Shown here one piece after another: positions 16,418-41,674 of a DNA stretch of 64,000 bases. The notes under the pieces are model-generated. The model ran no database searches. It was not told the DNA's origin and was given only the letters and a program-made list of their open reading frames with translations. The DNA comes from Rhizobium favelukesii (GTDB lineage Bacteria > Pseudomonadota > Alphaproteobacteria > Rhizobiales > Rhizobiaceae), in NCBI RefSeq assembly GCF_000577275.2, contig NZ_HG916854.1, positions 186,001 to 250,000 on the forward strand. Reading direction: 5' to 3'. The translations under genes and the position numbers were made by a program. The stretch's first letter is position 1. Every line of letters starts with the position of its first letter.

Positions 16418-16923
16418 GATGCGAATTGCCTGTGTGCTGATGGACTGGACGAACAGAGCGAAGGCCCGGGGCCGGTCACTCCAAAACAAAATGACAAGAA
16501 CCGATGTGCTCTCGTGTTCAGTCTTGTCCTCCCCGTTGAAGCGGTTTCGGCACAACCAAGAAATCGTGTCGTGCTACTCAATGAACGTGCTTCCGATGTC
16601 TAGAATGATTTTGGTAGGCGCTCATTGATGGATTGCTTCTCTGCCGGTTCATTTGGTCAGATGGATCCAAGGGGATTTCGAACTTCGATGCCACCGCTTG
16701 CCATCATGTCCATTCTTTCGTCGCGTGAAACCTAATCACTATTAAGTGTATAGAGAAGATAGATTATTCTATTTTTTTATTGAGGATGGCCATTTCTCGT
16801 TCGCGCACGATCTTCAGCCGAAGCGGCTGCCGGAGATCGAACCGGACGACAAGATCTCAATCACGGAACTCCGAGATGGGCCACGGCGTTCTGGTAGCTG
16901 CTCAAGACGGAGAACGGTGTGCG
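16418..16923. promoter_or_regulatory. Divergent intergenic region with an AT-rich dyad
   Basis: About 500 bp between two divergent genes. The AT-rich block around 16741-16780 contains ATAGATTATTCTAT (16759-16772), a dyad with arms ATAGA and TCTAT. A similar dyad lies before the truncated LLM gene (43089-43106). Possible frames in the interval have no family match, and I see no supported gene. Confidence 0.35.
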
Positions 16924-18297
16924 ATGGTCTATGATGTGGTGATCGTGGGCGCTGGATTTTCCGCAATTGCCAGCGTCTGCAATCTCATCGAACTGTTGCC
17001 TGCCTCCTTTTCGGTCGCGGTCGTCGGCGACGATCCGGGATTCGGGCGCGGTACTGCCTACCGCACGGAGCTTTATCTTCACCGCCTCAACGTGCCGGCA
17101 GGGCGCATGAGCCTGTTTGCGGATCGACCAGACGCATTCGTCGATTGGCTTGCTGAGCACAAGCGGCCCGTGGGTGCTGGCGATTTTGCCTCTCGCCAGG
17201 ATTACGGCCTTTACGTCCGCGACAGTCTGGCGGGGCTTCTTCGAAGGAAACCGCGCTGCCGGGTCGATTTCATCAAGGCAAAAGCGACGGGGTGCCTTGG
17301 GCGCTACAACGCGGCCCTCGGCTTTCTGTTCGACAACGGCAACGAGATCGCAGGTCGCAACATTGTGCTTTGCCTCGGCGTTGGGAGCGCCAAACTGCCG
17401 ATTGACTTGTCCGGACTGCCAGCGCTCGGGGCCAGTCATGTCGTCGACAATCCCTGGCGGTTGTCCTGGCTCGGGCGCGTGGCGTCCGAAGACAGCGTCT
17501 GCATCCTCGGTTCGGGGCTGACGATGATCGATCAGGTTCTCGCCCTTCATGCTCACGGCTTCAAGGGTCATATCGATGTCATCTCCAGGCGCGGTCTTGC
17601 GCCACTCAGCCATGCGCGCGCACCGAAGCCGCCGGCGGAACTCGATGTTGCGACGCTGCCGACCAGATTGAGCGAACTCATGGGGACACTGCGCCGGGAA
17701 AGCAGGTGCGCCGATGATTGGCGCAGCATCATGGACAGCCTGCGTCCGCAGACTCAGACGCTGTGGCAGCGTTTGCCGTTGTCCGAACGAAGCCGGTTTT
17801 TGCGCCACGCTCTACCGTGGTGGAACATCCATCGACACCGGGTCGCGCCCGATGTCTTCGAACGATTTGAGGAGATAACAAGAAGCGGACAGATCGCGCT
17901 CCACGCGGGTTACCTGCTCAACGTCGAAGCTGGAGATCGGCTCACGCTTTGCTATCGGGCCAGGGGGCGGCGCGATGTCCTGTCCATTCAGACCGATTGG
18001 ATCGTGAACTGCACCGGCATGGAGCGGGCAGGTATGGCGCATTCGCCGCTATTGCGTGCGATGCAGCACCAGGGTCTGATCGAAGCCGACCCACTTGGGC
18101 TCGGCATCATAGTCGATCCTCGGTCGCGCATCCCGAAAACCTCGGAAAATGGCGTGTCCATCTACGCCGTGGGCGCGCTGACTGCCGGCCAGTTCTGGGA
18201 AATCACCGCCGTGCCTGATCTGCGGGTGCAGGCCCGCAAGGTAGCAGAAGCGATCGCGAAGCGCCGTTGGGCTAAGAGTGGGCAGGACGATGGTTGA
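16924..18297 (+). CDS. FAD/NAD(P)-binding protein (NAD_binding_9/YdhS-like), copy 1
   Basis: Cytosolic flavoprotein of 457 residues. The dinucleotide fold is plain at the N-terminus (DVVIVGAGFSAIASV), followed by the family pattern FGRGTAYRTE and the LNVPAGRM loop. A second nucleotide-binding motif lies near residue 195 (VCILGSGLTMID), and there is a C-terminal IYAVGALTAGQFWE. A CGGAGA ribosome site precedes the ATG at 16924; longer in-frame starts lack one. A paralogue sits at 32099-33514, again next to an LLM monooxygenase gene. The family (uncharacterised, related to YdhS) has no established reaction. Linkage suggests a redox role in organosulfur use, which is inference. Confidence 0.8.
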   Translation: MVYDVVIVGAGFSAIASVCNLIELLPASFSVAVVGDDPGFGRGTAYRTELYLHRLNVPAGRMSLFADRPDAFVDWLAEHKRPVGAGDFASRQDYGLYVRDSLAGLLRRKPRCRVDFIKAKATGCLGRYNAALGFLFDNGNEIAGRNIVLCLGVGSAKLPIDLSGLPALGASHVVDNPWRLSWLGRVASEDSVCILGSGLTMIDQVLALHAHGFKGHIDVISRRGLAPLSHARAPKPPAELDVATLPTRLSELMGTLRRESRCADDWRSIMDSLRPQTQTLWQRLPLSERSRFLRHALPWWNIHRHRVAPDVFERFEEITRSGQIALHAGYLLNVEAGDRLTLCYRARGRRDVLSIQTDWIVNCTGMERAGMAHSPLLRAMQHQGLIEADPLGLGIIVDPRSRIPKTSENGVSIYAVGALTAGQFWEITAVPDLRVQARKVAEAIAKRRWAKSGQDDG

Positions 18298-18314: not shown

Positions 18315-19472
18315 TCAAGATTGCGGCGTTGCGCGGCCAAGCGCGTTTCGGGCGGCGATCGTTCTGATCATGTGGTTCTGCGGCGCATGTGAGCGCCCCG
18401 TTATGGCGTCGCGGTGATGGCGCTCAAGCTGAAAATCACGGTTCAGGCCCGGGTTTTCGGAAAGGTCGAGGGCAAGGCTGGTAATGGCAACGGCATTGTC
18501 GATGACAACGTGGCGAACGCTCATGCCCTCCATTCCAACAGGTCTGCCGGCGTCGACGTCTTCGCCAAGCGAACGCAAAAGTCTGGCGTTGGTGGCAAGC
18601 CGAACCTCGATCTCTCCCAGTCCGTCCTGGATACGCGGCACGGTAGCGATCGGTGAGCCGAGGCTTGCAGGCCTATGATGGGCGGCAAAGGCGAGCACGC
18701 GGTCGCGCGCAGAAACTGCCACGCCATGGTAAACCGCGCCGATGAGCGAGAAGAAGAAGGCTGTTGCGTGCTCTTCGCGACGCAGCGGCTCCGATGCGGG
18801 CTGAGCTTCGATGACATCTTGAAGCGGCACGACGACACCGTCGAGTATGATATCGTCGCTGGCCGTCGCATGCATGCCTGCGGCGTTCCATGTCTTTTCT
18901 ATGTGCAGGCCAGGACTGTCCGTGGGGACGAGGAAGGAAGCAAGCCGCGGCTCCTTCTCATCGGTCAGCGCCAGTAGCGATACCCACTTGAGAACCGGTA
19001 TACCGGTGACGTAGGACTTACGACCGGTGATGCGCCAGGTGTCGCCATCAAGATGCGCGATCGTTTCGGGCAATGCCCCGTGAGCGGGAGAGCCGATGCG
19101 GGGCTCGGCCTGGGCGGCGTTGATCAGGGCAGGGCCAAGCCTGTTTGCCGACAACACCCGTTCGGCGAGATGTGTAGGCCATTTTTTATAGCGGCGCAGG
19201 CTATAGTGGCTGTTGTAGTGCATCGCCAGAACAAGCGCGGTCGAAGGTTCGCCGCGCGCGATCTCGCTTACCACTGCCTGTGCCTCGGCAAGCCCGCCGC
19301 CATGGCCCCCGTGTTCGCGTGCGGTCACAAGGCCAAGCAGTCCGGCCTCGAACAGACGCGTGAAGTTTTCGAAGGGAAACTCTCCCGTCGCGTCATGGTG
19401 GGCGGCGCGCTCGGCAAAATCCGCGGCGAGCCGCCGGGCCTTGTCCACCGGGTCGGTCGGTTGCTGAAGCAT
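18315..19472 (-). CDS. Acyl-CoA-dehydrogenase-fold flavin monooxygenase (DszC/SfnB-like)
   Basis: Cytosolic flavoprotein of 385 residues with the acyl-CoA dehydrogenase fold. The N-terminal helical part contains LGLVTAREHGGHGGG (near 49-63), the mid part has GRKSYVTG (about 150), and the C-terminal helices carry the basic RDFQLERHHRDAITGR. The catalytic glutamate of true acyl-CoA dehydrogenases is not evident, and the genomic setting is that of DszC-like oxygenases, which oxidise sulfur using FMNH2. It is the last gene of the operon running from the SBP (23359) through the LLM (21721) and the DszB-like gene (20531), and starts 21 bp after the latter. An AAAGGACG ribosome site precedes the ATG. 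A genuine dehydrogenase role cannot be excluded. Confidence 0.75.
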   Translation of the reverse strand: MLQQPTDPVDKARRLAADFAERAAHHDATGEFPFENFTRLFEAGLLGLVTAREHGGHGGGLAEAQAVVSEIARGEPSTALVLAMHYNSHYSLRRYKKWPTHLAERVLSANRLGPALINAAQAEPRIGSPAHGALPETIAHLDGDTWRITGRKSYVTGIPVLKWVSLLALTDEKEPRLASFLVPTDSPGLHIEKTWNAAGMHATASDDIILDGVVVPLQDVIEAQPASEPLRREEHATAFFFSLIGAVYHGVAVSARDRVLAFAAHHRPASLGSPIATVPRIQDGLGEIEVRLATNARLLRSLGEDVDAGRPVGMEGMSVRHVVIDNAVAITSLALDLSENPGLNRDFQLERHHRDAITGRSHAPQNHMIRTIAARNALGRATPQS

Positions 19473-19493: not shown

Positions 19494-20531
19494 TCAGGCC
19501 ACAGCATGCCGGTCGAAGCCGTCGATGTGGCGGCGATCGACCCAGTCGGCGATGCTGAAGTCGGCTTCAAGAAAGCCGAAATCGCGCAGGAAATCCTTGT
19601 AGTGGCTGATCGCGTCGACCAGCTCCGGCTGAAGCCCGAGGCCGAGATGCCTGTGGATGTCGGGGCCATTGGCGGCGAGCACCTGGTCTTCGCTGGCGCC
19701 AGATTCACGTGCAACGAAACGTCTCGTCTCCTCCGGATGGGCTTCAGCCCATGTGCTTGCCTTGAAAATCGCTTCCAGCAGGCGGGCGACGAGATCCGGC
19801 CGCTCGTCGGCCAGGCGTTCGTCCACCGTCAGCACGCGTGGCGAACCGGAATTGATGCGGATCTTCGCATCGGGGTGAAAGCCGAACTCGACGACCTCGA
19901 CGGCACCGATGAGGTTTGCGACGTTGATGCCGGCCGTTCCCTTCACGTAGATGGCGTCCACGTCGCCGCGGATGAGTGCGGCAACGTCCTCGCCATATGC
20001 CTGCCGGCGTTTCAACCCGAAAAGCGACAGGCCCTCCTGTGTCGAAAGCACTGAATCGGCAAGGGTGATGTCGACGATCTCGACATCGCTCAGTGCCAGG
20101 TCTTCGAGCGAAAGCGCCGAAACGAGGCCCTTCAATGCGGTGGCGCGCATGAAATCGACAATGCCTTCCGGGCGGCGGGCAATGCCGAAGCGACGCCCCT
20201 TCAGATCCTTCGTTGTCTTTATGCCGGTTTCAGGCAGGGTGATGATCGCCTGAAATTCGTCGGTCCAGGTGATGCCGACGAGGCGTGTCTTGCGTCCCTC
20301 CGAGCGCGCCCGGATCGGCGGCACGTTGCCGCCATGGCGGAACGACCAGTCGAGCGTATGGTTGAAATGGCTCTGGCGGATGCTGCGGTCGGGCGAATCG
20401 ATGATCGACTTCAGCGTCACGCCCTCCTTGCGGAAATTTTCTTCGAGGTAACCGAGCTGCGCGGCAAGGCCGACAGGCGTCGGCACGGGGCAGCGCGTGT
20501 ACCAGATTTCGGAAATGGCATTGCTTGTCAT
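19494..20531 (-). CDS. DszB-like sulfinate desulfinase (resembles an SsuA/TauA-type binding protein)
   Basis: The 345-residue product has the periplasmic-binding-protein fold of SsuA/NrtA proteins but no signal peptide: it begins MTSNAISEIWYTRCPVPTPV. Rhodococcus DszB, a cytosolic 2-(2'-hydroxyphenyl)benzenesulfinate desulfinase built on the same fold, uses Cys27, His60 and Arg70. Here Cys14 lies in YTRCPVP (DszB: YSNCPVP), His55 in QSHFNHT, and Arg65 in FRHGGNVPPI (DszB: RFGGEIPPL); the His-to-Arg spacing of 10 is the same. The gene sits between an SfnG-like LLM (11 bp upstream) and a DszC-like gene, so the trio mirrors dszABC. Likely role: hydrolysis of an organic sulfinate to sulfite. Automatic annotation would probably call it an ABC transporter binding protein. 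The start at 20531 has GAGGCGC-type upstream purines. Confidence 0.75.
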   Translation of the reverse strand: MTSNAISEIWYTRCPVPTPVGLAAQLGYLEENFRKEGVTLKSIIDSPDRSIRQSHFNHTLDWSFRHGGNVPPIRARSEGRKTRLVGITWTDEFQAIITLPETGIKTTKDLKGRRFGIARRPEGIVDFMRATALKGLVSALSLEDLALSDVEIVDITLADSVLSTQEGLSLFGLKRRQAYGEDVAALIRGDVDAIYVKGTAGINVANLIGAVEVVEFGFHPDAKIRINSGSPRVLTVDERLADERPDLVARLLEAIFKASTWAEAHPEETRRFVARESGASEDQVLAANGPDIHRHLGLGLQPELVDAISHYKDFLRDFGFLEADFSIADWVDRRHIDGFDRHAVA

Positions 20532-20542
20532 CGCGCCTCTCC

Positions 20543-21721
20543 TCAGTGCCGAAGGCCAGCTTGTTTCATCAGGGGAAGGACGTGCGAACCGAAGAATTCG
20601 AGATCGTCGCGGAAGTCGAAGAAGCTGAGCTGCAGGCCGTCGACGCCAGCCTCCTTCAGCTTGACGAACTGGTCGACCACCTGTTCGGGCGAGCCGATGA
20701 CGCGGATGTTGCCGCCGATGGCGCGGTAGGGATCCTGGGGATCGCGCCCCTTCCAGGCTTGCGCGTCCGAATTCAGCGACTGGAAGCCCTGTGGTGAACG
20801 ATGATCGGCATGGGCAACAATTCGCTCGGCCAATTCCCAGGCCTCCTTCTCCGTCGGCCGACAGATCACCATTGGATTGAGAAGCGTGCGGACCGTGCGG
20901 CCGACGTCGATTGCGGCGTCCTTGACCCGCTTCGTATGCGCCGGCAGCGATTGCAGGGCACTGTCGATGTCGGCACCCGTCGGACTGGTGATGAAGACGA
21001 TATCCGAGTAGCGGCCTGCAAAGGCAATCCCTGCATCGGAACCGGTGGCGTTGACGAGGATCGGACGGCCGAAATTCGGCTTTGGTGTCACAAAGCCGCC
21101 GCCGAGTTTCCAACTGCTTTCTCCTTCGAAGGAGAAATTTTCCGTATCGCTCCACAGGCGCTGTACAACTTCCAGGAATTCGGCTGCGAGCTCATACCGC
21201 CTATCGTGTTCGATGCGCGGCCAGCCGAACATTTCATGTTCGACGGCGCGATGACCGGTCACCACGTTGATGCCCCAGCGCCCGCCGGTGATGTGATCGA
21301 GCGTTGCCCCGAACTTTGCCAGATGCAAGGGATGCCACGGGCCATAGAGCACGTGCATGGTCGAAATCAGCATGATCTTCTTGGTGAGGCCCGCCAACGC
21401 CGCTATCGATACAAAGCTGTCCAGTGCCTGGCCGTCGAAGACGCCACCATACCCGCCCTTCGGCAGCCATTGAGACAGCGCAAAGACGAGATCGAATCCG
21501 AGTTCTTCGGCCTTCAGCGTCAGAGCCTTGTTGTAGTCGAAACGCCAGTCCGTCGATCTTTCCAGCGTCGATTGGGTCCAGCCGCCGGCCTGGATCGGCA
21601 GGAAGAGGCCGAGAAGAAGCGGTTGCTTGAGCGCCTGCGACAAGGGGCTTTCGGCAAAGTCGGTCGGGGCCGCAAATTTCGGCAGGCCAACGATCGATCC
21701 GGGACGATGTTGAATGGACAT
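20543..21721 (-). CDS. SfnG/RutA-branch FMN-dependent monooxygenase
   Basis: LLM-superfamily flavin monooxygenase of 392 residues. The stretch GGWTQSTLERSTDWRFDYNK (residues 46-65) and FDLVFALSQW resemble dimethylsulfone monooxygenase SfnG (GGLVxSKIEQRTDWxxDYN). HITGGRWGINVVTGHRAVEH, DRRYELAAEFL and the C-terminal FFDFRDDLEFFG complete the barrel. A CGGGAGC ribosome site lies before the start. It stands first of three enzyme genes (LLM, DszB-like, DszC-like), 33 bp after a peptide-type binding protein gene. The neighbours favour cleavage of a C-S bond in an organosulfur substrate; the pyrimidine-oxygenase (RutA) branch is less likely here. Confidence 0.82.
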   Translation of the reverse strand: MSIQHRPGSIVGLPKFAAPTDFAESPLSQALKQPLLLGLFLPIQAGGWTQSTLERSTDWRFDYNKALTLKAEELGFDLVFALSQWLPKGGYGGVFDGQALDSFVSIAALAGLTKKIMLISTMHVLYGPWHPLHLAKFGATLDHITGGRWGINVVTGHRAVEHEMFGWPRIEHDRRYELAAEFLEVVQRLWSDTENFSFEGESSWKLGGGFVTPKPNFGRPILVNATGSDAGIAFAGRYSDIVFITSPTGADIDSALQSLPAHTKRVKDAAIDVGRTVRTLLNPMVICRPTEKEAWELAERIVAHADHRSPQGFQSLNSDAQAWKGRDPQDPYRAIGGNIRVIGSPEQVVDQFVKLKEAGVDGLQLSFFDFRDDLEFFGSHVLPLMKQAGLRH

Positions 21722-21754: not shown

Positions 21755-23359
21755 TCAGGATGCGGCGACGTAGGCATAGGCAAGGCTGCCGGCCACGCCC
21801 TCGCCACCAACGGTGTGATCGGAGATGCGCCTGTTATAGATCGTCAGTTCCGGCTGGCTGACGATGTCGATCGCCGGCACGTCCTCGACGAGGATCTGCT
21901 GGATGTCGCGCCACTGCGCGATGCGCTTTTCCGGGTCGACTTCGACGGCAGCTGCTTCAAGCAGCTGATCGACCTTCGGATTGCTATAGGCCGCTCCGTT
22001 GGAGAATGGCACGCCGGGCTTGAAGTTCTTGCTCCAATAGAGGCGCTGTACGCCGACCGTCGGATCGAAGAGGTTGCTCATCCCTTCGAAGGCGAAGTCG
22101 AAGTCGCGATCCGTATAGATGCGCTTGGTGTAGGTTGCAAAATCCTGGCTGCGAACCGTCGCGTCGATGCCGACCTTGGCAAGCGCCTGGCGAATATATT
22201 CGGATCCCCGTGGATAGGTCTCGCCGCTCGGCACGTAGTCTAGATTGATGCGGGCGCGTATGCCGTCGGCGCCGCGCGGGTAGCCGGCCTCATCCAGGAG
22301 TTTCTCGGCCGCGGCCAGATCGATCGGATAGGTCTTGAGATCGGGCACATACCATTTTGCCAGATGGGGATTGATCGGGCCCGGGATGGCGGCGCCGTAG
22401 CCATAGTTGATGGTGTTCAGGATGACGTTGCGGTCGATGACATGGGCAAAGGCACGGCGCACCCGTACATCCTTGAAGAAGGGACGCTCGAGATTGAACT
22501 CGATGCGGCTGACGCCATTTGCATATTGGTAGCCGTTGGCCTCGAAGGCGAGCGTTTCGACGCCCTTCAGTCGCTCGAGATCGCTGAGCGGCACGGGCGT
22601 TGACGGCGCAAGGTCGATTTCGCCGGTCTCGATCGCGATCGAACGGGCGGCTGCATCCGGAATGAAGCGGACGATCAGCTGGTCGAGATAGGGGCGTGGC
22701 TGATCCCAATAGTCGGGGTTGCGTTCATAGACGATGTGGCTGCCGCGCACCCATTCCTTGAACTTGAAGGGGCCGGTGCCGATTGGCGCCAGATTGGCCG
22801 GGTTCTCCGCAACCTTGGTACCCTCATAGACGTGGCGCGGCACGATCGGCGTTTCCGATGCGGCAAGAGCAGTGATCAGATAGGGCGCCGGCTTTGACAG
22901 TTTCAGAACGACCGTCAGCGCGTCGGGCGTTTCGATGTCGACAAGATTGAGGAAGGTGTTGCGCCCACGCGGGTGCACCTCTTTCAGGGTCTTGATCGAG
23001 AAGGCGACATCGGCGGAGGTGAAGGGCTGCCCGTCATGCCATTTCACGCCCTCGCGCAGCTTGAATGTGTAGGTCACTCCATCGGGACTGACGGTCCATT
23101 GCTTGGCGAGCAAGGGACGCGGGTTCAGCTCGAAATCGTAGGTGAGAAGGCCTTCCGTCGTCTTCGGCGATACGTAGACCGCATTGAACGCCGTGTGGGC
23201 GATCGTTGTCAGGACAGGTGGCTCGGCCGAGAGCAGGAGCGTTGCTGTGCCTCCGCGCGTTGCTGCAGCAAAGGCTGGAAGCCGGGCTGCTGCCGTGACG
23301 GCAATTGCGACCGAGGCAAGGAGGAAGCTGCGGCGTGTGGGTGCCGGGAATAGTGACAT
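21755..23359 (-). CDS. Peptide/nickel-type ABC substrate-binding protein, Tat-exported (SBP family 5), copy 1
   Basis: Periplasmic binding protein of the DppA/OppA family, 534 residues. TRRSFLLAS near residue 11 is a twin-arginine signal, followed by a hydrophobic stretch and cleavage near PAFAA. Family 5 landmarks include LLTYDFELNPRPLLAKQW, YTFKLREGVKWHDG and RAFAHVIDRN. I chose the ATG at 23359, which lies 9 nt after AGGG; a TTG three codons earlier lies directly on that site. It is the first gene of the minus-strand LLM-DszB-DszC operon and is divergent from dppBCDF (23635 on). Two more binding proteins of the same family lie at 33583 and 47844. Confidence 0.9.
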   Translation of the reverse strand: MSLFPAPTRRSFLLASVAIAVTAAARLPAFAAATRGGTATLLLSAEPPVLTTIAHTAFNAVYVSPKTTEGLLTYDFELNPRPLLAKQWTVSPDGVTYTFKLREGVKWHDGQPFTSADVAFSIKTLKEVHPRGRNTFLNLVDIETPDALTVVLKLSKPAPYLITALAASETPIVPRHVYEGTKVAENPANLAPIGTGPFKFKEWVRGSHIVYERNPDYWDQPRPYLDQLIVRFIPDAAARSIAIETGEIDLAPSTPVPLSDLERLKGVETLAFEANGYQYANGVSRIEFNLERPFFKDVRVRRAFAHVIDRNVILNTINYGYGAAIPGPINPHLAKWYVPDLKTYPIDLAAAEKLLDEAGYPRGADGIRARINLDYVPSGETYPRGSEYIRQALAKVGIDATVRSQDFATYTKRIYTDRDFDFAFEGMSNLFDPTVGVQRLYWSKNFKPGVPFSNGAAYSNPKVDQLLEAAAVEVDPEKRIAQWRDIQQILVEDVPAIDIVSQPELTIYNRRISDHTVGGEGVAGSLAYAYVAAS

Positions 23360-23634
23360 TTCGTTCAACCCTCATGATCTCAAAGGCCGCTTGGGCCTGG
23401 TTCGGTGCCATTGCGCAGATCACTCCCGGCGTAGAGATTTTTGCCAGTCGATCACGATGATGTGGTATAAAATTCCGCAATTGAACAGTTGGCGGTATTG
23501 AATTCCTAAAAGTAGGTTGTAGAACGACTCCTTTGGAATTATCTACCTATATGATTTGACAAAACCCACAGAATTAGTCAACTAATTACACAGCAAAACG
23601 AGGCGAAATCTTTTCAGGTCGCGAGGCGGGACAC
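23360..23634. promoter_or_regulatory. Divergent promoter region of the desulfurisation/dpp cluster
   Basis: Some 275 bp separate the start of the binding-protein gene (minus) from the permease gene (plus). The middle is AT-rich (about 23480-23600) and contains facing GAATTCC and GGAATTAT elements around 23498-23545 that could be a regulator site. Both transcription units must be driven from here. No gene fits in it. Confidence 0.5.
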
Positions 23635-24624
23635 ATGTCGGCTTACAGGCGGATCGGACGAACCATCGGCAGGACGATTATTCAGGCCGTGCCCACAATG
23701 CTCGGGATCGTCATTTTGAATTTCTTCCTGCTCAAGCTGGCACCGGGCGATGCGGCCGATGTCATGGCGGCAGAATCGGGTTCGGCGACGGTGGAGACCA
23801 TGGCCGCGTTGCGGGAGCGCTTCGGATTAGACAATCCTATCCTTGTCCAGCTGGCCAACTACCTGAACAACCTCGCGCACTTCAGCCTGGGCTTCTCCCC
23901 GCGCTACGGAATGCCTGTCGCCGATCTGATTGGTCAGCGGCTGCCCGGCACTCTTGTGCTGATGCTGGCGGCGCTGGCGATCGCAATTGCCGTCGGGCTA
24001 CTGCTCGGTTCGCTGATGGCAACCTTCTCGGGGCGTTTGCCCGACCGCATCATCTCCGTCGTTTCGCTGCTGTTTTATTCGATCCCTGGCTTCTGGATCG
24101 GTCTGATGCTGATCCTTCTGTTTTCCGTCAAGCTCGGCTGGTTGCCGAGCGGCGGCGACAGCACGATCGGCTCGCGGCTGACGGGATTGCCGGAATTGAT
24201 CGACAGGGCGCGCTACATGGTGTTGCCGGCCACCTCGCTGGCACTCTTCTACCTCGCGATCTACGCACGGTTGACACGCGCCTCAATGCTGGAGGTCAAG
24301 TCGCAGGATTTCGTGCGCACGGCACGCGCCAAAGGTGTCTCGCCCTTCGTGCTGACGACGCGCCACGTCCTGCGCAATGCCCTTATCCCCATTACGACGA
24401 TGGCCGGTATGCACTTTGGCGGCATGCTCGGCGGCGCGGTCGTGGTCGAGACTGTCTACAGCTGGCCGGGACTAGGCCGGCTGGCATTCGAAGCCGTCAT
24501 GGCGCGCGACTTCAGCGTGCTGCTCGGAATACTCCTGCTGTCTTCCTTCCTCGTGATCGTCGCCAATGCCGCCGTCGACCTCGTGCAGGCATGGATCGAT
24601 CCCCGAATTGGAGCAAGTCGATGA
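23635..24624 (+). CDS. Peptide-type ABC transporter permease (DppB-like)
   Basis: Inner-membrane permease of 329 residues. It has six hydrophobic segments, an N-terminal TMLGIVILNFFLLKLAPGD typical of DppB (xPxxxGVxxxxFxxxxxxPGD), and the EAA loop VRTARAKGVSPFVLTTRHVLRNAL near residue 225. It opens the plus-strand operon dppB-C-D-F and ends overlapping dppC by 4 nt. The importer probably serves one or more of the three peptide-type binding proteins encoded around it, of which the first is divergent. Confidence 0.92.
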   Translation: MSAYRRIGRTIGRTIIQAVPTMLGIVILNFFLLKLAPGDAADVMAAESGSATVETMAALRERFGLDNPILVQLANYLNNLAHFSLGFSPRYGMPVADLIGQRLPGTLVLMLAALAIAIAVGLLLGSLMATFSGRLPDRIISVVSLLFYSIPGFWIGLMLILLFSVKLGWLPSGGDSTIGSRLTGLPELIDRARYMVLPATSLALFYLAIYARLTRASMLEVKSQDFVRTARAKGVSPFVLTTRHVLRNALIPITTMAGMHFGGMLGGAVVVETVYSWPGLGRLAFEAVMARDFSVLLGILLLSSFLVIVANAAVDLVQAWIDPRIGASR

Positions 24625-25625
24625 ACAGTCCAAAACTTGGAACTCTTGCCGGTCGAGCAATCGACTTTGCGCCGCAGGCAAAGCTTAAAGACAGCCAGCC
24701 GGCGCCGGCCCCGTCCAAGCCGCCGCGCTGGACACATATTCATGCCCCCGACGTGCGTGCGTCGATGTCTGGCACCGCCTGGCGCGGCATGCGGCGGGAG
24801 GTGAAGGTCTTCCTAGCCAATCCCAATGCGCTCTTTGGCACAGGCATCCTCCTCGTCGTTGCTCTTTCAGCTTTGTTTGCTCCACTCCTCTATCCGGGCG
24901 ATCCGCTGGAGATGGTGGCGAGGCCGTTCCTCTGGCCGGGCCAGAATCCAGCGTATCCGCTTGGCACCGACTCCATGGGGCGTGATGTGCTGGCCGGCAT
25001 CGTTCACGGGGCGCGGATCTCCCTGACCGTCGGGCTTGCAGCCACCGCACTTGGGCTGACGGCCGGGATTGCCATCGGTGCTGCCGCGGGATATTTCGGC
25101 GGCCTGGTCGACGATGTGCTCGTCAAGTTCATCGAGATATTCCAGACCATTCCGAGCTTTGTGCTGCTTGTCGTCCTCGTGGCCATTGCCCAGCCGACGA
25201 CAGCAACCGTTACGGTTGCGATCGCAATTGTCAGCTGGCCGACCGTGGCGCGGCTGACGCGCGCCGAATTCAGGGCCATTCGCGAGAAGGACTACGTGCT
25301 TGCCGCCCGCAGCCTCGGGTTCGGCCATGCGCGCATCATCTTCCGCGAGATCCTGCCGAACGCCCTGCCGCCGCTGATCGTCACCTCCTCGGTGATGGTG
25401 GCAAGCGCCATTTTGATGGAATCAGCGCTGTCCTTCATGGGGCTCGGCGATCCCAACCGTGTCTCCTGGGGTTCGATGATCGGTGCGGGACGCGATGTCA
25501 TCCGCACCGCCTGGTATCTGACGGCGCTGCCTGGTCTGGCGATTGTCTTTGCGGTGCTTGCTCTCAACCTGATCGGCGACGGTCTCAACGACGCGCTCAA
25601 CCCGCGTTTTTCGGAGGAACGCTGA
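24621..25625 (+). CDS. Peptide-type ABC transporter permease (DppC-like)
   Basis: Partner permease of 334 residues. After about 55 hydrophilic residues there are six hydrophobic segments, with DSMGRDVLAGIVHGARISL (DppC hallmark) and the EAA loop ALRSLGFGHARIIFREIL-type stretch near residue 230. The ATG at 24621 overlaps the dppB stop (ATGA), which is preferred over an earlier ATG at 24591. Its stop overlaps the next gene start (TGATG), so B, C and D are translationally coupled. Confidence 0.92.
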   Translation: MNSPKLGTLAGRAIDFAPQAKLKDSQPAPAPSKPPRWTHIHAPDVRASMSGTAWRGMRREVKVFLANPNALFGTGILLVVALSALFAPLLYPGDPLEMVARPFLWPGQNPAYPLGTDSMGRDVLAGIVHGARISLTVGLAATALGLTAGIAIGAAAGYFGGLVDDVLVKFIEIFQTIPSFVLLVVLVAIAQPTTATVTVAIAIVSWPTVARLTRAEFRAIREKDYVLAARSLGFGHARIIFREILPNALPPLIVTSSVMVASAILMESALSFMGLGDPNRVSWGSMIGAGRDVIRTAWYLTALPGLAIVFAVLALNLIGDGLNDALNPRFSEER

Positions 25626-26617
25626 TGACAAAGCTCCTGGAGGTTTCCAACTTCTCGGTGCGCTTCCCGTCGGCCGAGCCTGTCAAGAGCGTCAGCTTTT
25701 TTGCAAATCCGGGCGAGATGCTGGCGATCGTCGGCGAATCCGGCTCGGGCAAGTCGCTGACGGCGCTCGGACTGATGGGGTTGCTGCCGCGCCAGGCACG
25801 CGCCGGCGGACAGATCCTCTTCGGCGGGCGCGATCTTATAGGTCTTTCCGAACGCCAGTTGCGTCGCATTCGCGGCCGCGATATCGCGATGATTTTTCAG
25901 GAGCCGATGACATCGCTCAATCCGGTGCTGACGATCGGTGATCAGATCATCGAGGTGCTGCGCATTCACGAGAATCTGACCCGGCGCCAGGCTCGCGAGC
26001 GCGCCATCGCGCTACTGGATCTCGTCAGTATTCCGCAAGCCGCCCGTCGTATCGACGAATATCCTCACCAGCTTTCTGGCGGAATGCGCCAGCGCGTCAT
26101 GATCGCGATTGCCGTTGCCTGCAATCCGAAACTGCTGATCGCGGATGAAGCCACGACCGCGCTGGACGTGACGATACAGGCGCAAGTGCTGCAACTGCTC
26201 GACAATCTTCGCGTCCAGCTGCAGATGGCCGTCATCCTCATCACCCACGATCTTGGCATCGTCGCACAATGGGCAGACCGCGTCGTCGTCATGTATGCCG
26301 GGCGCAAAATCGAGGAGGGGTTGCCCGATCAGGTGTTCGAGACGCCCTACCATCCCTATACGCAGGGTCTGCTGTCGGCCTCGCCGCGCTTGAAGGCCGA
26401 CTATCACTACCGTGACGGCCCGCTCCTAGAAATCCCGGGCTCGATCGTGTCGGCGGCCGGCGAGAAGGGCTGTTCCTTCCGCCCGCGCTGTCACGCCGCA
26501 CGGCCTGCCTGCGGGTCCAGTGTCCCTCAGCTCACCGCTCTTCCGGCCGGTCGGCAGGTTGCATGCCCCTATGTTCCAGCAATTGCGGAGGTCGCCCATG
26601 TCGCTCCTGTCGGTTGA
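25625..26617 (+). CDS. Peptide-type ABC transporter ATPase 1 (DppD-like)
   Basis: Cytosolic ATPase of 330 residues. Walker A is GESGSGKS (about residue 38), the signature is LSGGMRQR, Walker B is LLIADEATTALD, and the switch histidine is in ILITHDLG. A C-terminal oligopeptide-transporter domain contains GCSFRPRCHAARPAC, a cysteine cluster typical of DppD/OppD. It starts at the dppC stop and overlaps the next ATPase gene by 20 nt. Confidence 0.94.
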   Translation: MTKLLEVSNFSVRFPSAEPVKSVSFFANPGEMLAIVGESGSGKSLTALGLMGLLPRQARAGGQILFGGRDLIGLSERQLRRIRGRDIAMIFQEPMTSLNPVLTIGDQIIEVLRIHENLTRRQARERAIALLDLVSIPQAARRIDEYPHQLSGGMRQRVMIAIAVACNPKLLIADEATTALDVTIQAQVLQLLDNLRVQLQMAVILITHDLGIVAQWADRVVVMYAGRKIEEGLPDQVFETPYHPYTQGLLSASPRLKADYHYRDGPLLEIPGSIVSAAGEKGCSFRPRCHAARPACGSSVPQLTALPAGRQVACPYVPAIAEVAHVAPVG

Positions 26618-27533
26618 TCGGCTTTCGACCCATTATCCTGGAACGACCGGCATCGTGCGCGCTGTCGACGGCGTCTCGCTGGAGATCGCCGAAGGCGAGA
26701 CGGTGGCGCTGGTCGGAGAGTCGGGCTGCGGCAAGTCCACGCTCGGCAAATCGCTGGTACGGCTCGTCGACCCATCCTCGGGCCGTGTGACCTTCAAGGG
26801 CAGGGACGTGACCGCCATGTCGGGCAGCGAGCTGCAATCGGTCCGCCGCAGCATCCAGATGATCTTCCAGGATCCATTCGCGTCTCTCAATCCAAGGCAG
26901 ACGATCCGCGCCATCCTGACCGCGCCGCTTGCCGTTCATGGCGTTGGCGAGCGCAAGCGCCGCGAGGCGATTGCGGCTCAGATGGTTGCCCATGTAGGGC
27001 TTCCCGCCGACGCGCTCGATCGCTATCCGCACGAATTCTCCGGCGGTCAGCGCCAGCGTATCGGGATCGCCCGTGCCCTCATCCTGCAGCCGGAGCTGGT
27101 CATCTGCGACGAGCCGGTTTCAGCGCTCGATCTTTCCATCCAGGCACAGATCCTCAATCTGCTGGTCGAAATGAAGACCGAGCTGTCGCTTTCCTACCTC
27201 TTCATTTCGCATGATCTTTCCGTTGTGCGCTATTTCGCCGATCGCGTGCTCGTGATGTATCTGGGGCGCATTGTCGAAAGTGCCTCGACAAGCGAGCTCT
27301 GGACCAATGCGAAGCATCCCTACACGCAAGCGCTGCTCGCGGCTGTTCCCGATCCGTCGCGCCGCAAGCAGGCCGCCCCCATCACTGGCGATCTGCCGAG
27401 CCCGCACGATCCGCCTGCCGGTTGTCGTTTCCATACGCGCTGTCCGCTCGCAACCGATATCTGCCGGGCCGAAGACCCGACGTTTCGCCAGTTCGGCACC
27501 GGCCACGCCGCTGCCTGTCACCACGCTCAGTAA
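26598..27533 (+). CDS. Peptide-type ABC transporter ATPase 2 (DppF-like)
   Basis: Second ATPase of the importer, 311 residues. Walker A is GESGCGKST, signature FSGGQRQRIGIARAL, Walker B LVICDEPVSALD and the switch region FISHDLSV. The C-terminus contains GCRFHTRCPLATDIC, as in DppF/OppF. I chose the ATG at 26598, right where the domain begins (MSLLSVDRLSTHY), over the upstream ATG at 26520 that would lie deep inside dppD. The aldo/keto reductase gene follows 13 bp later. Confidence 0.94.
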   Translation: MSLLSVDRLSTHYPGTTGIVRAVDGVSLEIAEGETVALVGESGCGKSTLGKSLVRLVDPSSGRVTFKGRDVTAMSGSELQSVRRSIQMIFQDPFASLNPRQTIRAILTAPLAVHGVGERKRREAIAAQMVAHVGLPADALDRYPHEFSGGQRQRIGIARALILQPELVICDEPVSALDLSIQAQILNLLVEMKTELSLSYLFISHDLSVVRYFADRVLVMYLGRIVESASTSELWTNAKHPYTQALLAAVPDPSRRKQAAPITGDLPSPHDPPAGCRFHTRCPLATDICRAEDPTFRQFGTGHAAACHHAQ

Positions 27534-27546
27534 CAAGGAGAAGAAA

Positions 27547-28605
27547 ATGGTCGATTATCGCTATCTGGGGCGCAGCGCGCTGAAGGTATCACCGCTCAGC
27601 CTGGGAACCATGATGTTTGGTGGGCCGACGCCTGACGACGTCGCCTTCCGCATCATCGACAAGGCACGTGAGCAGGGGATTAACTTCATCGATACCGCCG
27701 ATGTCTATCACGACGGCAAGTCGGAAGAGGTCGTCGGCAAAGGCATCAAGGCGCACCGAGATCACTGGGTGCTGGCAACCAAGTTCGTCAACTCCCACAA
27801 GAAGGGTCCGAACCTCGGCGGCCATTCGCGCAAGTGGGTGATCGAGACGGTCGAGAATTCGCTGCGCCGCCTCAACACCGACTATATCGACATCCTCTAC
27901 TTCCACAGAGCTGTCTTTGACGCGCCTCTGGAAGAGCCGGTGCGCGCCATTGCAGACCTCATCCGCGCTGGCAAGCTGCGCTATTTCGGCGTCTCGAACT
28001 TCCGTGGCTGGCGGATCGCCGAGATTGCCCATCTTGCCGACGAGCTCGGCATCGATCGTCCGGTGGCAAGCCAGCCGCTCTACAACATCGTCAACCGCAC
28101 CGCCGAAGCAGAGCAGCTGCCTGCAGCCCATCACTACGGCCTCGGCGTCGTTTCCTACTCGCCCCTTGCCCGCGGCGTCCTGACGGGCAAGTACGAACCC
28201 GGCAAGGAGCCAGCTGCCGACACCCGCGCCGGTCGCGGCGACAAACGCATCCTGGAAACGGAATGGCGTCCTGAATCGATTGCAATTGCCACCGAGATCG
28301 CCGCTCATGCTGCCCGCAAGGGGATTTCACCGACGGAATTCGCGCTTGCCTGGGTGCTCAACAACAAGCTGATCTCGGCGGCCATCACCGGACCACGCAC
28401 GCAAGAGCACTGGGACAGCTACATCCGCGCGCTCGACGTCAAGCTCGATGCTGAGGATGAGGCACTGGTCGATCGGCTGGTCACGACAGGGCACCCCTCG
28501 ACGCCCGGTTTCAACGATCCGAGCCATCCGGTCGAAGGCCGCGTGCCGCGCAGTACTGCTTCGGGCATCTACAATGGGGTGCCGCTGACGCGCGCCGTAG
28601 CCTGA
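27547..28605 (+). CDS. Aldo/keto reductase
   Basis: NADPH-dependent oxidoreductase of the AKR superfamily (TIM barrel), 352 residues. The tetrad is visible: Asp49 in INFIDTAD, Tyr54 in DVYHDG, Lys79 in LATKF and His120 in DILYFHRA. The cofactor region shows VLTGKY and ITGPRTQEHW near the C-terminus. An AAGGAG ribosome site lies just before the ATG at 27547. The gene is in the dpp operon and is closed by a strong hairpin (28615-28641). It may reduce an aldehyde or ketone released by the oxygenases, which is inference. Confidence 0.9.
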   Translation: MVDYRYLGRSALKVSPLSLGTMMFGGPTPDDVAFRIIDKAREQGINFIDTADVYHDGKSEEVVGKGIKAHRDHWVLATKFVNSHKKGPNLGGHSRKWVIETVENSLRRLNTDYIDILYFHRAVFDAPLEEPVRAIADLIRAGKLRYFGVSNFRGWRIAEIAHLADELGIDRPVASQPLYNIVNRTAEAEQLPAAHHYGLGVVSYSPLARGVLTGKYEPGKEPAADTRAGRGDKRILETEWRPESIAIATEIAAHAARKGISPTEFALAWVLNNKLISAAITGPRTQEHWDSYIRALDVKLDAEDEALVDRLVTTGHPSTPGFNDPSHPVEGRVPRSTASGIYNGVPLTRAVA

Positions 28606-28674: not shown

Positions 28675-29928
28675 ATGCCGAATATCGCTCCTTCAGCACT
28701 GTCTGCCACTGCCGCGCCCGGCCTTTCTGCGCAGGGGAACAATCTTTCCGAGCTTCTTGCGAAGATCCTAACGCTATCGGCCGAAATATCGAAAGAGGCG
28801 GCAAGGCGCGACCTGGAGAGGGAGCTTCCTTTCGAAGCTTTCCGCCTTTTCAAAGAGGCTGGGCTCGGCGCGTTACGCATTCCGGTGGCACTCGGTGGTC
28901 CGGGTGGATCGGTCGCGGACTACATCGACATGATCATGGCGATCGGTGCCGCAGATTCAAACGTTGCCCATGCGCTGCGCAGCCATTTCAATTTCACCGA
29001 AAGCCTCATTCTCAGCCCCAATACGGCCATCGACCGAACGCAGCTCGGCCGCGTTCTCTCTGGCAAGCTTTTCGGGGGTGCTCATACCGAGCAGGGGACC
29101 AAGCGCCCGGGCGAAGTGACGACACGGTTGACGAGAACCGGCGAGACCTACCGCCTCAACGGCCGGAAATGGTATGCGACGGGGACAGCCTTTTCCGATT
29201 TTGCCTCTTTCAGCGCCCGGAACGACGAGGACGAGTTCGTCAGCGTCCTGCTACCGGTGGATCGCAAAGGCATCACCATTCTCGATGACTGGGACGGCAT
29301 GGGCCAGCGGCTGACAGCCAGTGGCGGCGTGATGCTCGAAGACGTCGAGGTATTACCGCACGAGATCTCCAAACGGGGTCTGAACACGCTGGTCGGGCGC
29401 CATACCTCGACGTTGCGTCAGCTCCACCTGGCCGCCTCAATGGCAGGTGCAGTGCGCGGCGCACTCGCAGAGGGGACCGATTATGTGCGCAGGCAGGCGC
29501 GGTCGGCTGCCCACAGTGCGGCCGAGACGGCCAATGCCGATCCCTTCGTGCAGAAGATATTGGGTGAGATTGCTGCAGGCTCCTTTGCTGTCGACACGTT
29601 GATCCGCGAGAGTGCGCGTGCGCTGGATCGCTCGGTGGTGGCCTTTGCAGGGGGTGACGCCGAGGCGATCGAAACAGCCTTGATCGAAAGCGCGCTGACG
29701 ACGGCCCGCACGCAGATCATCGCCTCGCAGCTCGCGCTTGCGGCCGCCACCAACGTCTTTGAGCTTGGCGGCGGGTCGGCGACCTCCCGCCATCTCAATC
29801 TCGATCGACACTGGCGCAACATCCGCACGGTGCTGAACCATAACCCGCTGCTGCACAAGGCGAGGGTGGTCGGCGACTATTACATCAACGGAACCACGAC
29901 GCATCTGGAAGAAGGCAAGGTCTTCTAA
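28675..29928 (+). CDS. DszC/SfnB-like FMN-dependent monooxygenase
   Basis: Acyl-CoA-dehydrogenase-fold flavoprotein of the DszC/SfnB group, 417 residues. Landmarks are LGALRIPVALGGPGGS (residues 63-78), GRKWYATGTAFSDF (about 163), WDGMGQRLTASGGV (about 205) and the C-terminal RHLNLDRHWRNIRT, the signature end of DszC-type enzymes (LDRHWRNxRT). They use FMNH2 from a separate reductase to oxidise a sulfur or nitrogen atom. The gene is 28 bp upstream of an SsuD-like LLM, so the two may act in sequence. A GAGAAGG ribosome site precedes the ATG. Confidence 0.85.
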   Translation: MPNIAPSALSATAAPGLSAQGNNLSELLAKILTLSAEISKEAARRDLERELPFEAFRLFKEAGLGALRIPVALGGPGGSVADYIDMIMAIGAADSNVAHALRSHFNFTESLILSPNTAIDRTQLGRVLSGKLFGGAHTEQGTKRPGEVTTRLTRTGETYRLNGRKWYATGTAFSDFASFSARNDEDEFVSVLLPVDRKGITILDDWDGMGQRLTASGGVMLEDVEVLPHEISKRGLNTLVGRHTSTLRQLHLAASMAGAVRGALAEGTDYVRRQARSAAHSAAETANADPFVQKILGEIAAGSFAVDTLIRESARALDRSVVAFAGGDAEAIETALIESALTTARTQIIASQLALAAATNVFELGGGSATSRHLNLDRHWRNIRTVLNHNPLLHKARVVGDYYINGTTTHLEEGKVF

Positions 29929-29956: not shown

Positions 29957-31048
29957 ATGAGCTCGGAATTCATCGGTCACGTATCGAACCGCGAGGGGTC
30001 GGATATCGTGCCACCCAAGGGACCGGTGGTGGACAAGGACTATATCCTCAACCATGCAACGGCCGCTGAAGAGGCGGGTATCGATCGGCTGCTGATCGGC
30101 GCTTTTTCGACCTGGCCGGACAACAACCAGATTGCCGCCTACCTGTTTGCCAAGACGAACCGGATCGGCGCATTGCTCGCCCATCGCACCGGTTTCATGT
30201 CGCCGACGCTTGCCGCGCGCCAGCTCGCGACACTCGATCAGTTTTCAGACGGGCGACTGTGGGTCCACATCATCACCGGCGGCTCTGACGCCGACCAGCA
30301 GCGCGACGGCGATTTCCTCGATCACGACAGACGCTACGACCGCACCGACGAATATCTGACGGTTCTCAAGAAGGTCTGGGAAAGCGAAGAGCCTTTCGAC
30401 CATGAAGGCGAATTCTACAAGGTCAAGACTGCGGTTTCGCAGGTCCGACCGTCACGGCAATCACGGATTCCGATCTCTTTCGGCGGTTCGTCTGAGGCTG
30501 CCTTCAAGGTTGCCGGCAAGCACGCGGACATCTACGCGCTGTGGGGCGAGCCGCTCGATGGCGTGCGCGAAACGATCGGCAAGGTGCGAACGGCCGCTGA
30601 AGCTTTCGGGCGCGCCGATGACATCCGCTTTACCATCGCCTTCCGGATCGTTGTTGCGGAGACCGAAGACAAGGCATGGGAAAAAGCCAGTTCCATCCTG
30701 CAGAAGGTCAAGGCGATAGCCCGGCCCGGCGGTAACGGGGAGAGGTTGCCGTCGAACGCAGGATCAGTGCGTCTGAGGGAAGCGGCTGCGCGCGGCAAGG
30801 TCCTCGACAAGCGCCTGTGGACTGAGGTCGCAGCGCTCACCGGTGCCGGCGGCAACTCGACGGCACTCCTCGGTACGCCGGACCAGGTCGCCGAAGCGAT
30901 CCTCGATTACTATGACGCCGGCGTCTCCAACTTCCTGATGCGAGGTTTTTATCCGACGGAAGACACGGTGACCTATGGGCGCGATGTCGTACCGCTCGTC
31001 AAGGCCGGCATTGCCGCACGCAAGTCACGCTCCATCGCTGCTGAGTGA
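29957..31048 (+). CDS. SsuD-like FMN-dependent monooxygenase
   Basis: LLM-superfamily monooxygenase of 363 residues, SsuD branch. Conserved parts are DGRLWVHIITGGSDADQQ, DRRYDRTDEYLTVLKKVW, the substrate-side IPISFGGSSEAAFKV and LWGEPLDG. It begins after GAAGGAG with ATG at 29957. It lies in the dpp-DszC unit and is followed at once (overlap at the stop) by an amidohydrolase gene. The family releases sulfite from sulfonates or oxidises related substrates. The partner reductase is not encoded in this unit. Confidence 0.86.
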   Translation: MSSEFIGHVSNREGSDIVPPKGPVVDKDYILNHATAAEEAGIDRLLIGAFSTWPDNNQIAAYLFAKTNRIGALLAHRTGFMSPTLAARQLATLDQFSDGRLWVHIITGGSDADQQRDGDFLDHDRRYDRTDEYLTVLKKVWESEEPFDHEGEFYKVKTAVSQVRPSRQSRIPISFGGSSEAAFKVAGKHADIYALWGEPLDGVRETIGKVRTAAEAFGRADDIRFTIAFRIVVAETEDKAWEKASSILQKVKAIARPGGNGERLPSNAGSVRLREAAARGKVLDKRLWTEVAALTGAGGNSTALLGTPDQVAEAILDYYDAGVSNFLMRGFYPTEDTVTYGRDVVPLVKAGIAARKSRSIAAE

Positions 31049-32013: not shown

Positions 32014-32098
32014 CAACGTTTCGCAGAGCTTGCGTTCGCATGCCGATTTTACACCCCGATCTACCAGGCCTGTCATTGCTGACGGGAGAGGAGGTTCA

Positions 32099-33514
32099 TT
32101 GCGTATCGATCGTATTGCGCATCATTCGGTGACCATTGTTGGCGGCGGCTTTGCCGGGGCGGTGACAGCGTTGAAGCTTCTGGAGCGGACCGAAGTGCCG
32201 CTTGCGATCACTGTGATCGAGCGGCGTGCCGAGCTTGGCCGTGGGGTCGCCTACAGCACGCCCGACCCCGTCCACCTCGTGAATGGGCCGGCTGAAATCT
32301 TTTCGCTGTACCCCGAAGACCCCGGCCATCTGTCACGCTGGCTTGTCGAGAATGGCGCCGGCAACGGCTGGGTGCCGCCCGTCGATGTGGGCTCAAGTAG
32401 TCCGCCGCGCTATCTTTATGGAACCTATGTTCGCGATGAGCTTGCCCGTGCCGTTTCAAGTGCGCGGTTCGGGTCGACGTTGCGGCATGTCGGGTCGTCG
32501 GCATCCGCGCTGGTGTCCACACCGCACCGGATCCGCATAACGATAGCGGACGGGACGGTCGTGGAGGCCGACGAGGCTGTGTTGGCGCTTGGCGTGTTCC
32601 AGCCGCGACTGTCCGAAGCTGAGGCCACTCTTGCAAGTCACGCGCGCTTTGCAGCCAATCCCTGGGACGCGGATGCGCTTGACCGCGTGAGCGGCTGTGA
32701 GGAGATCCTCCTGATCGGTTCCAGCCTGTCGATGGTCGATGCGATTGCCAGCATGGAAGCGAGAGGCAATCGCGGTCGCTACCGGGTGATATCGCGCCGT
32801 GGTCAGTTCGTGGAAGGTCGCAGAACCGTCGCCGCCGCCCGCGATTTTCTCTCTGATGGGCCGTTGCCGGTGACGGCGCGCGATCTGCTGTCGCGCGTGA
32901 AGGCGGAGCGGCGTGCGATCTCGGCAGCCGGTACGGACTGGCAGGGCCTGCCTCTCGCGATCCGGCCCCATATCCTTACCTTGTGGCAGGGCGCGAGTGA
33001 TCGTGAGCGGTTGCGTTTCATCAGGCATCTGCGACCCTATTGGGATGTCACGGCACATCGATCGGCGCCGGAGAGCCACAAGACCATCGAGACCGTGATC
33101 TCCGAAGGCCGGCTGGCTCACCGTCGCGCGCGTGTGCTTGGCTTTGGACTCGAAGGAGACCAGATCGTCGCCCGACTAGGGACCGGAACGGGTATCGAGA
33201 CCGCACGGTTCGACGGTGTCATCGACTGCCGCGGTCATCAGTTGCACGATTGGCGACAGATTGCCGATCCTTTCGTCAAGAGCCTGCTTGCAAGTGGCGA
33301 AGTCCGGCCGCATAGCACCGGCTATGGCATCGACGCGACGCCCGAGGGAGATCTCATCAATGAAGAGGGTCGCGTTCATCGCAACCTCAGCGCCATAGGG
33401 CACCCGCTGCGCGGTGTCGCATGGGAGTCGAGTTCGATTACCGAGCAGCGCACACAGGCGGTCGCGCTCGCCGATCGCATCCTTGCCAAACTGACGCCGG
33501 CGCGCGTCGCCTGA
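32099..33514 (+). CDS. FAD/NAD(P)-binding protein (NAD_binding_9/YdhS-like), copy 2
   Basis: Cytosolic flavoprotein of 471 residues, paralogue of the one at 16924-18297. SVTIVGGGFAGAV at the N-terminus is the FAD fold, followed by LGRGVAYSTPDPVHLVNGPA, the family-specific loop, and a second dinucleotide motif ILLIGSSLSMVD near 210. The start is a TTG at 32099 behind the strong ribosome site GAGAGGAGG; a longer frame begins in the amidohydrolase gene at 32030. It is the last gene of the plus-strand unit, closed by a bidirectional terminator at 33529-33557. Its reaction is unknown. Confidence 0.8.
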   Translation: MRIDRIAHHSVTIVGGGFAGAVTALKLLERTEVPLAITVIERRAELGRGVAYSTPDPVHLVNGPAEIFSLYPEDPGHLSRWLVENGAGNGWVPPVDVGSSSPPRYLYGTYVRDELARAVSSARFGSTLRHVGSSASALVSTPHRIRITIADGTVVEADEAVLALGVFQPRLSEAEATLASHARFAANPWDADALDRVSGCEEILLIGSSLSMVDAIASMEARGNRGRYRVISRRGQFVEGRRTVAAARDFLSDGPLPVTARDLLSRVKAERRAISAAGTDWQGLPLAIRPHILTLWQGASDRERLRFIRHLRPYWDVTAHRSAPESHKTIETVISEGRLAHRRARVLGFGLEGDQIVARLGTGTGIETARFDGVIDCRGHQLHDWRQIADPFVKSLLASGEVRPHSTGYGIDATPEGDLINEEGRVHRNLSAIGHPLRGVAWESSSITEQRTQAVALADRILAKLTPARVA

Positions 33515-39939: not shown

Positions 39940-39952
39940 CGTCTTTCCTCCG

Positions 39953-40294: not shown

Positions 40295-40304
40295 TGTTGT
40301 TCTC

Positions 40305-41663: not shown

Positions 41664-41674
41664 TGCTGTTCCTT

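Follow-up and report, generated by a model that had tools for sequence, protein, structure and literature searches.

The gene at 19494–20531 of the 64,000-nucleotide stretch of Rhizobium favelukesii contig NZ_HG916854.1 (hereafter the window, taken at its full length) probably encodes a cytoplasmic, cofactor-free sulfinate desulfinase. As judged from its sequence, the protein has the periplasmic binding protein (PBP) fold and belongs to a subfamily of its own beside DszB (EC 3.13.1.3). A preliminary description of this DNA had suggested a probable sulfinate desulfinase, and this is still the best-supported reading of a predicted activity, because no signal peptide is apparent, Cys14 is kept among homologues, the structural model is nearest to substrate-bound DszB and His55 lies in a helix. 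The reading is based on homology, predicted fold, conserved residues, the absence of an apparent signal peptide and a conserved neighbourhood, and from these we infer catalysis, the order of the steps and the substrate.

Relation to DszB and conservation of the active-site residues

The open reading frame (ORF) was confirmed as first described, and we add its strand, which had not been given. Its 345-residue product starts MTSNAISEIWYTRCPVP. A phmmer search against the PDB returned DszB (2de2, E = 6.9e-15; 2de3 and 2de4, E = 2.2e-13) about 13 orders of magnitude ahead of the next best sequence (E = 0.099). The best match of the predicted structure was substrate-bound DszB, and H55 is modelled in a helix, as reported for that form of DszB. 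DszB, and not SsuA/TauA, is the closest relative of the protein by sequence and fold, and no other desulfinase turned up among its relatives of solved structure. The Pfam match is NMT1. The NCBIfam model of the SsuA family (TIGR01728) gave 86.7 bits, well short of the cut-off of 163.5, which the SsuA-like protein at 44670 of the window also just missed with 154.6 bits.

Calculations on DszB assign to C27 the donation of a proton to the sulfinate-bearing carbon and to H60, together with S25, the stabilisation of the transition state, while R70 is part of an RXGG motif conserved among DszB homologues; the C27S mutant is inactive and H60Q is about 17-fold less active (PMC6100217). In the alignment C27 pairs with C14, H60 with H55, R70 with R65, the two glycines of RXGG with G67 and G68, and S25 with T12. 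Cys14, His55 and Arg65 are found where the preliminary description had placed them, and the His-to-Arg spacing of 10 equals that of H60 and R70 in the phmmer alignment. The motif itself reads R65-H66-G67-G68, and Thr12, at the position of the hydroxyl partner of the histidine, is a conservative change. Mutation of the pocket residues Y63 and Q65 changes the activity of DszB (PMC6100217). Their aligned counterparts are H58 and L60 in all 120 of the best 120 of 876 matches (73–100% identical by BLAST, the window's own protein included). Consequently the protein is not a DszB in the strict sense, and these sequence differences suggest that its substrate is probably not 2'-hydroxybiphenyl-2-sulfinate, the substrate of DszB.

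The ATG lies 11 bases past the stop of the upstream gene for a luciferase-like monooxygenase (LLM) and is preceded by GAGGAGAGG. Codons in frame upstream of it are within the LLM gene and encode no hydrophobic stretch or leader. As a measure of a leader, in place of a dedicated signal-peptide predictor, we used the maximum, within the first 35 residues, of the Kyte-Doolittle mean over 11 residues. This maximum is 1.13 for the protein and the median is also 1.13 in the best 120 rows (highest 1.77). For three leader-bearing binding proteins of the window the values were 2.52 (the SsuA-like protein at 44670), 2.47 (the family-5 binding protein) and 2.30. By hydropathy and start position, then, no signal peptide is apparent, as had been claimed. 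The contrast drawn earlier with the SsuA-like protein also held, since that protein has a leader by hydropathy and an Arg instead of Cys in the C14 column.

Protein matches were listed as the best 120 of 876, of 770 and of 2194. In the first of these listings 119 rows have C14 and T12, the remaining row being gapped, and H55, R65, G67 and G68 are found in every row; C14 is the sole cysteine in 118. A Streptomyces relative, 37% identical to the window protein, was used to gather the set of 2194, and its best 120 rows all keep T12, C14, H55, H58, R65, G67 and G68. R65, G67 and G68 are also present in each of 34 divergent rows (two DszBs included), where the C14 position holds Cys or Ser and no other residue. 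Free replacement of Cys14, which would have spoken against an enzyme, was thus not seen. Among the listed members of the window's subfamily the triad as a whole does not vary, whereas in the wider family it does.

None of the 18 SsuA-type rows has the Cys, His or Arg at the triad columns, 13 of them having a gap where the Cys would be. A maximum-likelihood tree of 79 rows unites DszB, the DszB of Mycobacterium plasmid pMyong1 and the family in one clade (100/99), apart from the SsuA-type rows. The divergent-row alignment took matches aligned over at least 180 residues only and used 10 of the first 57 loci. It omitted 13 redundant loci (L059–L061, L064, L066, L068, L069, L073, L077, L108–L111) as well as L081–L083 and L097 (window's own genome). 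L058_2_940 (at a locus end; Ser for Cys, His lost) and L085 (without the N-terminal part) were omitted from the 34-row count and the tree.

Gene neighbourhood and distribution

Table 1 Desulfinase-like gene, its predicted active-site codons and neighbouring genes (positions in the window)
Feature	Position	Strand	Remark
DszB-like PBP-fold protein, predicted sulfinate desulfinase	19494..20531	minus	345 aa, no signal peptide apparent
Cys14 codon	20490..20492	minus	aligns with DszB C27; sole cysteine of the protein
His55 codon	20367..20369	minus	aligns with DszB H60
Arg65 codon, first residue of the R-X-G-G motif	20337..20339	minus	aligns with DszB R70
LLM flavin monooxygenase, SfnG-like, directly upstream	20543..21721	minus	SfnG is top model and top PDB relative
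Acyl-CoA-dehydrogenase-fold protein (SfnB/ACAD-like)	18315..19472	minus	starts 21 bases past the stop of the desulfinase-like gene
Family-5 (Opp/Nik type) solute-binding protein	21755..23368	minus	N-terminal hydrophobic leader
Opp-type ABC permease, OppB-like by order and sequence	23635..24624	plus	ORF; near the gene in 78/80 loci
Opp-type ABC permease, putative OppC-like	24591..25625	plus	ORF; near the gene in 78/80 loci
ABC ATPase, putative OppD-like	25625..26617	plus	ORF
ABC ATPase, putative OppF-like	26520..27533	plus	ORF; true start probably internal
Aldo/keto reductase	27547..28605	plus	near the gene in 77/80 related loci (at least 70% identity)
SfnB-like ACAD-fold monooxygenase candidate	28675..29928	plus	SfnB model 285 bits, below cut-off 431
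SsuD-like LLM monooxygenase	29957..31048	plus	219–221 bits, below cut-offs

The upstream LLM, presumed to make a sulfinate, has SfnG (8t0u, E = 1e-43) as its nearest PDB sequence and is, by its sequence, SfnG-like, not a proven SfnG. The earlier label of an SfnG-like neighbour therefore stands as a likeness, qualified by the scores discussed below. The downstream acyl-CoA dehydrogenase-like (ACAD) gene had been called DszC-like. It is indeed acyl-CoA-dehydrogenase-like, but we rejected the DszC label as it is weakly DszC-like: it scored 118 bits with the SfnB model and 39 with the DszC model, both below cut-off, the solved structure nearest to it is an 'acyl-CoA dehydrogenase type 2 domain protein', and DszC is not among its listed PDB relatives. 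Neither direct neighbour is an orthologue of the dsz proteins of pMyong1 (LLM 27% to DszA, ACAD 23% to DszC).

Better DszC/MsuC-like genes than the downstream ACAD gene are found at 38722–40050 and 41675–42853. The region 37400–42853, 17–22 kb away, contains two pairs of NtaA/YtnJ/DszA-like LLM and MsuC/DszC-like ACAD genes (LLMs 40–41% identical to DszA of pMyong1, ACADs 41% and 36% to DszC), so that all three kinds of dsz-like gene are present in the window. No SsuBC-type gene lies directly beside the desulfinase-like gene in the window. Seven places in the genome score above the cut-off of the flavin-reductase domain PF01613 and could supply reduced flavin.

The locus comparison covered 80 of the 106 confirmed genome loci that carry the protein, and the Opp permease and aldo/keto reductase genes recur in it as given in Table 1. 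The ACAD-like gene is directly downstream in 72 of the 80 loci, the SfnG-like LLM directly upstream in 42, and the trio LLM, DszB-like gene and ACAD is complete in 37. This order is that of dszABC on pMyong1. In Sphingobium sp. TomTYG65 a relative named soxB follows an LLM, with ssuABC and an arylsulfatase gene within about 10 kb.

A second DszB-like gene is present in 17 of the 80 loci. In 16 it lies behind the ACAD gene (L058:10150-11307 and others among L059–L077 and L116; 52–58% identical), and Gln replaces H66 in the RXGG of these copies; the 17th locus, L080, has a distant copy elsewhere. Such paralogue pairs perhaps have different substrates. Chelatococcus asaccharovorans likewise has two family members (L072). 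Tandem paralogues with Ser for Cys occur at L099:371-2062, L101:365-1426, L102:1815-3704 and L103:350-1411. They show the motif YTHSPVP, keep the His and RXGG, and each adjoins a Cys-bearing copy; ssuBC-like and LLM genes are near in the two genomes examined over a wider region (L120, L121). Perhaps these are natural C27S-like proteins, acting as a partner subunit or a binding variant.

Of 120 genomes of the genus, counting that of the window, 36 have the gene at E 1e-60. In a spread sample of the phylum 9 of 398 genomes matched a family profile (E 1e-20), two of them (L104, L105) through SsuA-type proteins only. These frequencies mark it as an accessory gene. Relatives in the listed matches are mostly annotated as a transporter part. 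Some records carry the names 'desulfurase', 'Dibenzothiophene desulfurization enzyme B' (a Devosia homologue) or '2'-hydroxybiphenyl-2-sulfinate desulfinase', and the desulfinase idea is therefore not wholly unrecorded.

In Sinorhizobium meliloti 1021, pSymA carries five genes, for the importer and the aldo/keto reductase, that are divergent from a cluster made up of a DszB-like gene, an ACAD, a second DszB-like gene, one stretch without an assigned gene and three further ORFs. In strain ml28 the three ORFs are annotated as an FAD-dependent monooxygenase, an NAD(P)-dependent oxidoreductase and an NtaA-type monooxygenase. The ACAD-like gene is split into two overlapping ORFs in strain 1021 (L124:11183-12648) and is one coding sequence in ml28. 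The importer and the desulfinase-like gene may be co-regulated in S. meliloti, if our matching of SMa numbers is right and the stretch without an assigned gene is counted as a gene. Neither 'sulfur' nor 'sulfonate' appears in the main text of the paper behind this comparison.

Several other genes of the window were noted. An amidohydrolase-2 gene (PF04909; 31045–32013) directly follows the SsuD-like LLM, and its product may act on the carbon skeleton once the sulfur has been removed. Proteins with the NAD_binding_9 (FAD-NAD(P)-binding) domain are encoded at 16780–18297 and 32030–33514, one on each side of the cluster. At 43159–43800, directly before an ssuBAC-like set, a short NtaA/DmoA-type LLM ORF covers model positions 1–149 of 422 only and, from its sequence, looks like a gene remnant or a frameshifted gene.

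Proposed reaction and competing explanations

In the proposed route, an ABC importer of the Opp type, served by a family-5 binding protein of its own, would take up an organosulfur compound, a DszC/SfnB-type monooxygenase would oxidise its sulfur, and the SfnG-like LLM would cleave the sulfone to a sulfinate. Arg65 and the RXGG loop would hold the sulfinate in the cleft, where the thiol of Cys14 would protonate the sulfur-bearing carbon, with Thr12 and His55 stabilising the thiolate. The SO2 (sulfite) released would go to cysteine synthesis. An enzyme that turns a sulfone into a sulfinate, encoded immediately ahead of one that sets sulfite free, would make a coherent pair, and the two may be coupled.

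A number of observations weigh against a desulfinase. Identity to DszB is about 26–29%, and the DszB branch of the tree is very long (2.41), a situation for which the tree program gives a warning of possibly false joins. Among the 34 divergent rows the C14 position is Cys in 29 and Ser in 5, His55 is kept in 32 and missing from 2, and the T12 position is Thr in 31, Ser in 2 and Ala in 1. Four of the five Ser rows fall in one clade (100/99) and are in tandem with Cys-bearing paralogues; the fifth, a Burkholderia paralogue, has also lost the His, and one Sphingobium paralogue keeps the Cys and lacks the His. A partial Devosia row outside this count lacks both residues, with Ser for Cys. Some members of the wider family are thus not DszB-type enzymes. 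With the SfnG model the upstream LLM reaches 206 bits (cut-off 383), RutA comes close behind SfnG among its PDB relatives (E = 3.4e-40), and the SfnG-like LLM is missing from its upstream place in 38 of the 80 loci. The downstream ACAD gene matches the model of 3-sulfinopropanoyl-CoA desulfinase with 101 bits (cut-off 600), so this gene could instead be the one responsible for a desulfinating step. In pseudomonads that have SfnG, MsuC and MsuD, the sulfinate is removed by oxidation (PMC8234197), and with MsuC/DszC-like genes in the window a desulfinase is not strictly needed. Finally, our literature search, which covered titles and the starts of abstracts of mostly non-subscription papers, brought up no study that we recognised as a functional one on the rhizobial DszB-like family.

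Some of these points would also fit a non-catalytic intracellular binding protein, a sensor or chaperone, that holds a sulfinate or sulfonate in a DszB-like cleft. The fold and the NMT1 and SsuA family models are those of binding proteins, members with Ser for Cys or without His imply that the cleft can persist without the full catalytic set, and the distance from DszB leaves room for a loss of activity. We nevertheless consider such a role quite unlikely, since binding alone does not demand the near-invariant, mostly sole cysteine at position 14. In addition, no signal peptide is apparent, no SsuBC-type gene directly adjoins, the importer has its own family-5 protein and the gene is placed between two oxidoreductase genes. 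Two transporter roles proper were rejected: an SsuA/TauA binding protein, on the lack of an apparent signal peptide, the score below the model cut-off and the lack of directly adjoining SsuBC genes, and the binding protein of the adjacent Opp importer, which has its own family-5 protein with a leader.

A PBP-fold enzyme of other chemistry, for example of the 4,5-dihydroxyphthalate decarboxylase or Thi5-like kind, in which Cys14 would act as an acid towards a carboxylate or another group, appears very unlikely. Thi5, the hydroxymethylpyrimidine phosphate (HMP-P) synthase, has a multi-cysteine iron motif, which is not found in our protein with its one cysteine. Among the 50 VIA rows listed, none was recognised as outside the PBP-like fold, which is not proof of absence. 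It seems highly improbable that the protein is a true DszB, that is, a 2'-hydroxybiphenyl-2-sulfinate desulfinase in a rhizobial 4S pathway for dibenzothiophene. The dszABC gene order, the DszA-like (40–41%) and DszC-like (36–41%) genes 17–22 kb away and the name of the Devosia homologue would agree with it. Against these stand direct neighbours that are not DszA/DszC orthologues, the replacement of Y63 and Q65 throughout the best rows, the long branch that separates DszB in the tree and an Opp-type importer, which would not be expected for a membrane-permeant polyaromatic. A dibenzothiophene dsz operon proper was rejected as well, as the partner genes are not orthologous and the pocket residues differ.

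A broader proposal can be offered as no more than a tentative and rather doubtful one. The subfamily, mostly hidden as 'ABC transporter substrate-binding protein' in Rhizobiales, other Proteobacteria and Streptomyces, would open a third fate for the sulfinates made by SfnG-type monooxygenases: sulfite would be split directly from a vinyl or alkyl sulfinate, with neither flavin nor oxygen. In rhizobia the subfamily would then supply the genetic basis, so far missing, for desulfurization of the benzothiophene type, a trait reported for Sinorhizobium sp. KT55 as cited in PMC3868597.

Comparison with known systems

DszB is known from fossil-fuel desulfurization, where its slow turnover is said to hold the process back (PMC12168087), and its relative here belongs to an accessory locus of plant-associated bacteria, including pSymA of S. 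meliloti. If the desulfinase is active, many 'binding proteins' would be reassigned to C-S bond cleavage, a candidate gene would be named for rhizobial benzothiophene desulfurization, and natural DszB variants, Ser-for-Cys included, would be available for enzyme study.

The protein resembles DszB in predicted fold, length, lack of an apparent signal peptide, the Cys-His-RXGG set with its His-to-Arg spacing, a hydroxyl residue at S25 (here Thr12) and its place as the middle gene between an LLM and an ACAD-type gene. It differs from DszB in the His and Leu that replace Y63 and Q65, in a Cys-to-His distance that is eight residues longer, in other LLM and ACAD neighbours and in its link to an Opp-type importer and an aldo/keto reductase. 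A Chelatococcus paper reports DszB by mass-spectrometry peptides (PMC4839641); the peptide quoted there is of Rhodococcus-type DszB and is thus uninformative on the subfamily considered here.

The bdsABC operon of Gordonia terrae C-6 has low homology to dsz and, expressed in E. coli, converts benzothiophene to o-hydroxystyrene; in that paper Sinorhizobium sp. KT55 is also cited, as a strain that desulfurizes benzothiophene specifically (PMC3868597). By the operon description, the desulfinase BdsA is similar to our case in that DszC-type, SsuD-type and ABC transporter genes adjoin it, but the adjoining genes are annotated as transporters of the sulfonate/nitrate/taurine type. From SsuA/TauA (TIGR01728) the protein differs in its score below 163.5, the lack of an apparent signal peptide and of directly adjoining SsuBC genes, and a Cys, His and Arg that no SsuA-type row shares.

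Another comparison is with the SfnG-MsuC-MsuD route of pseudomonads, in which SfnG converts dimethylsulfone to methanesulfinate (PMC8234197). Here too an SfnG-like LLM may give a sulfinate, and MsuC-like ACAD genes are found elsewhere in the window. Unlike in that route, a desulfinase-like gene follows the LLM, and its product would release sulfite in one step without flavin or oxygen.
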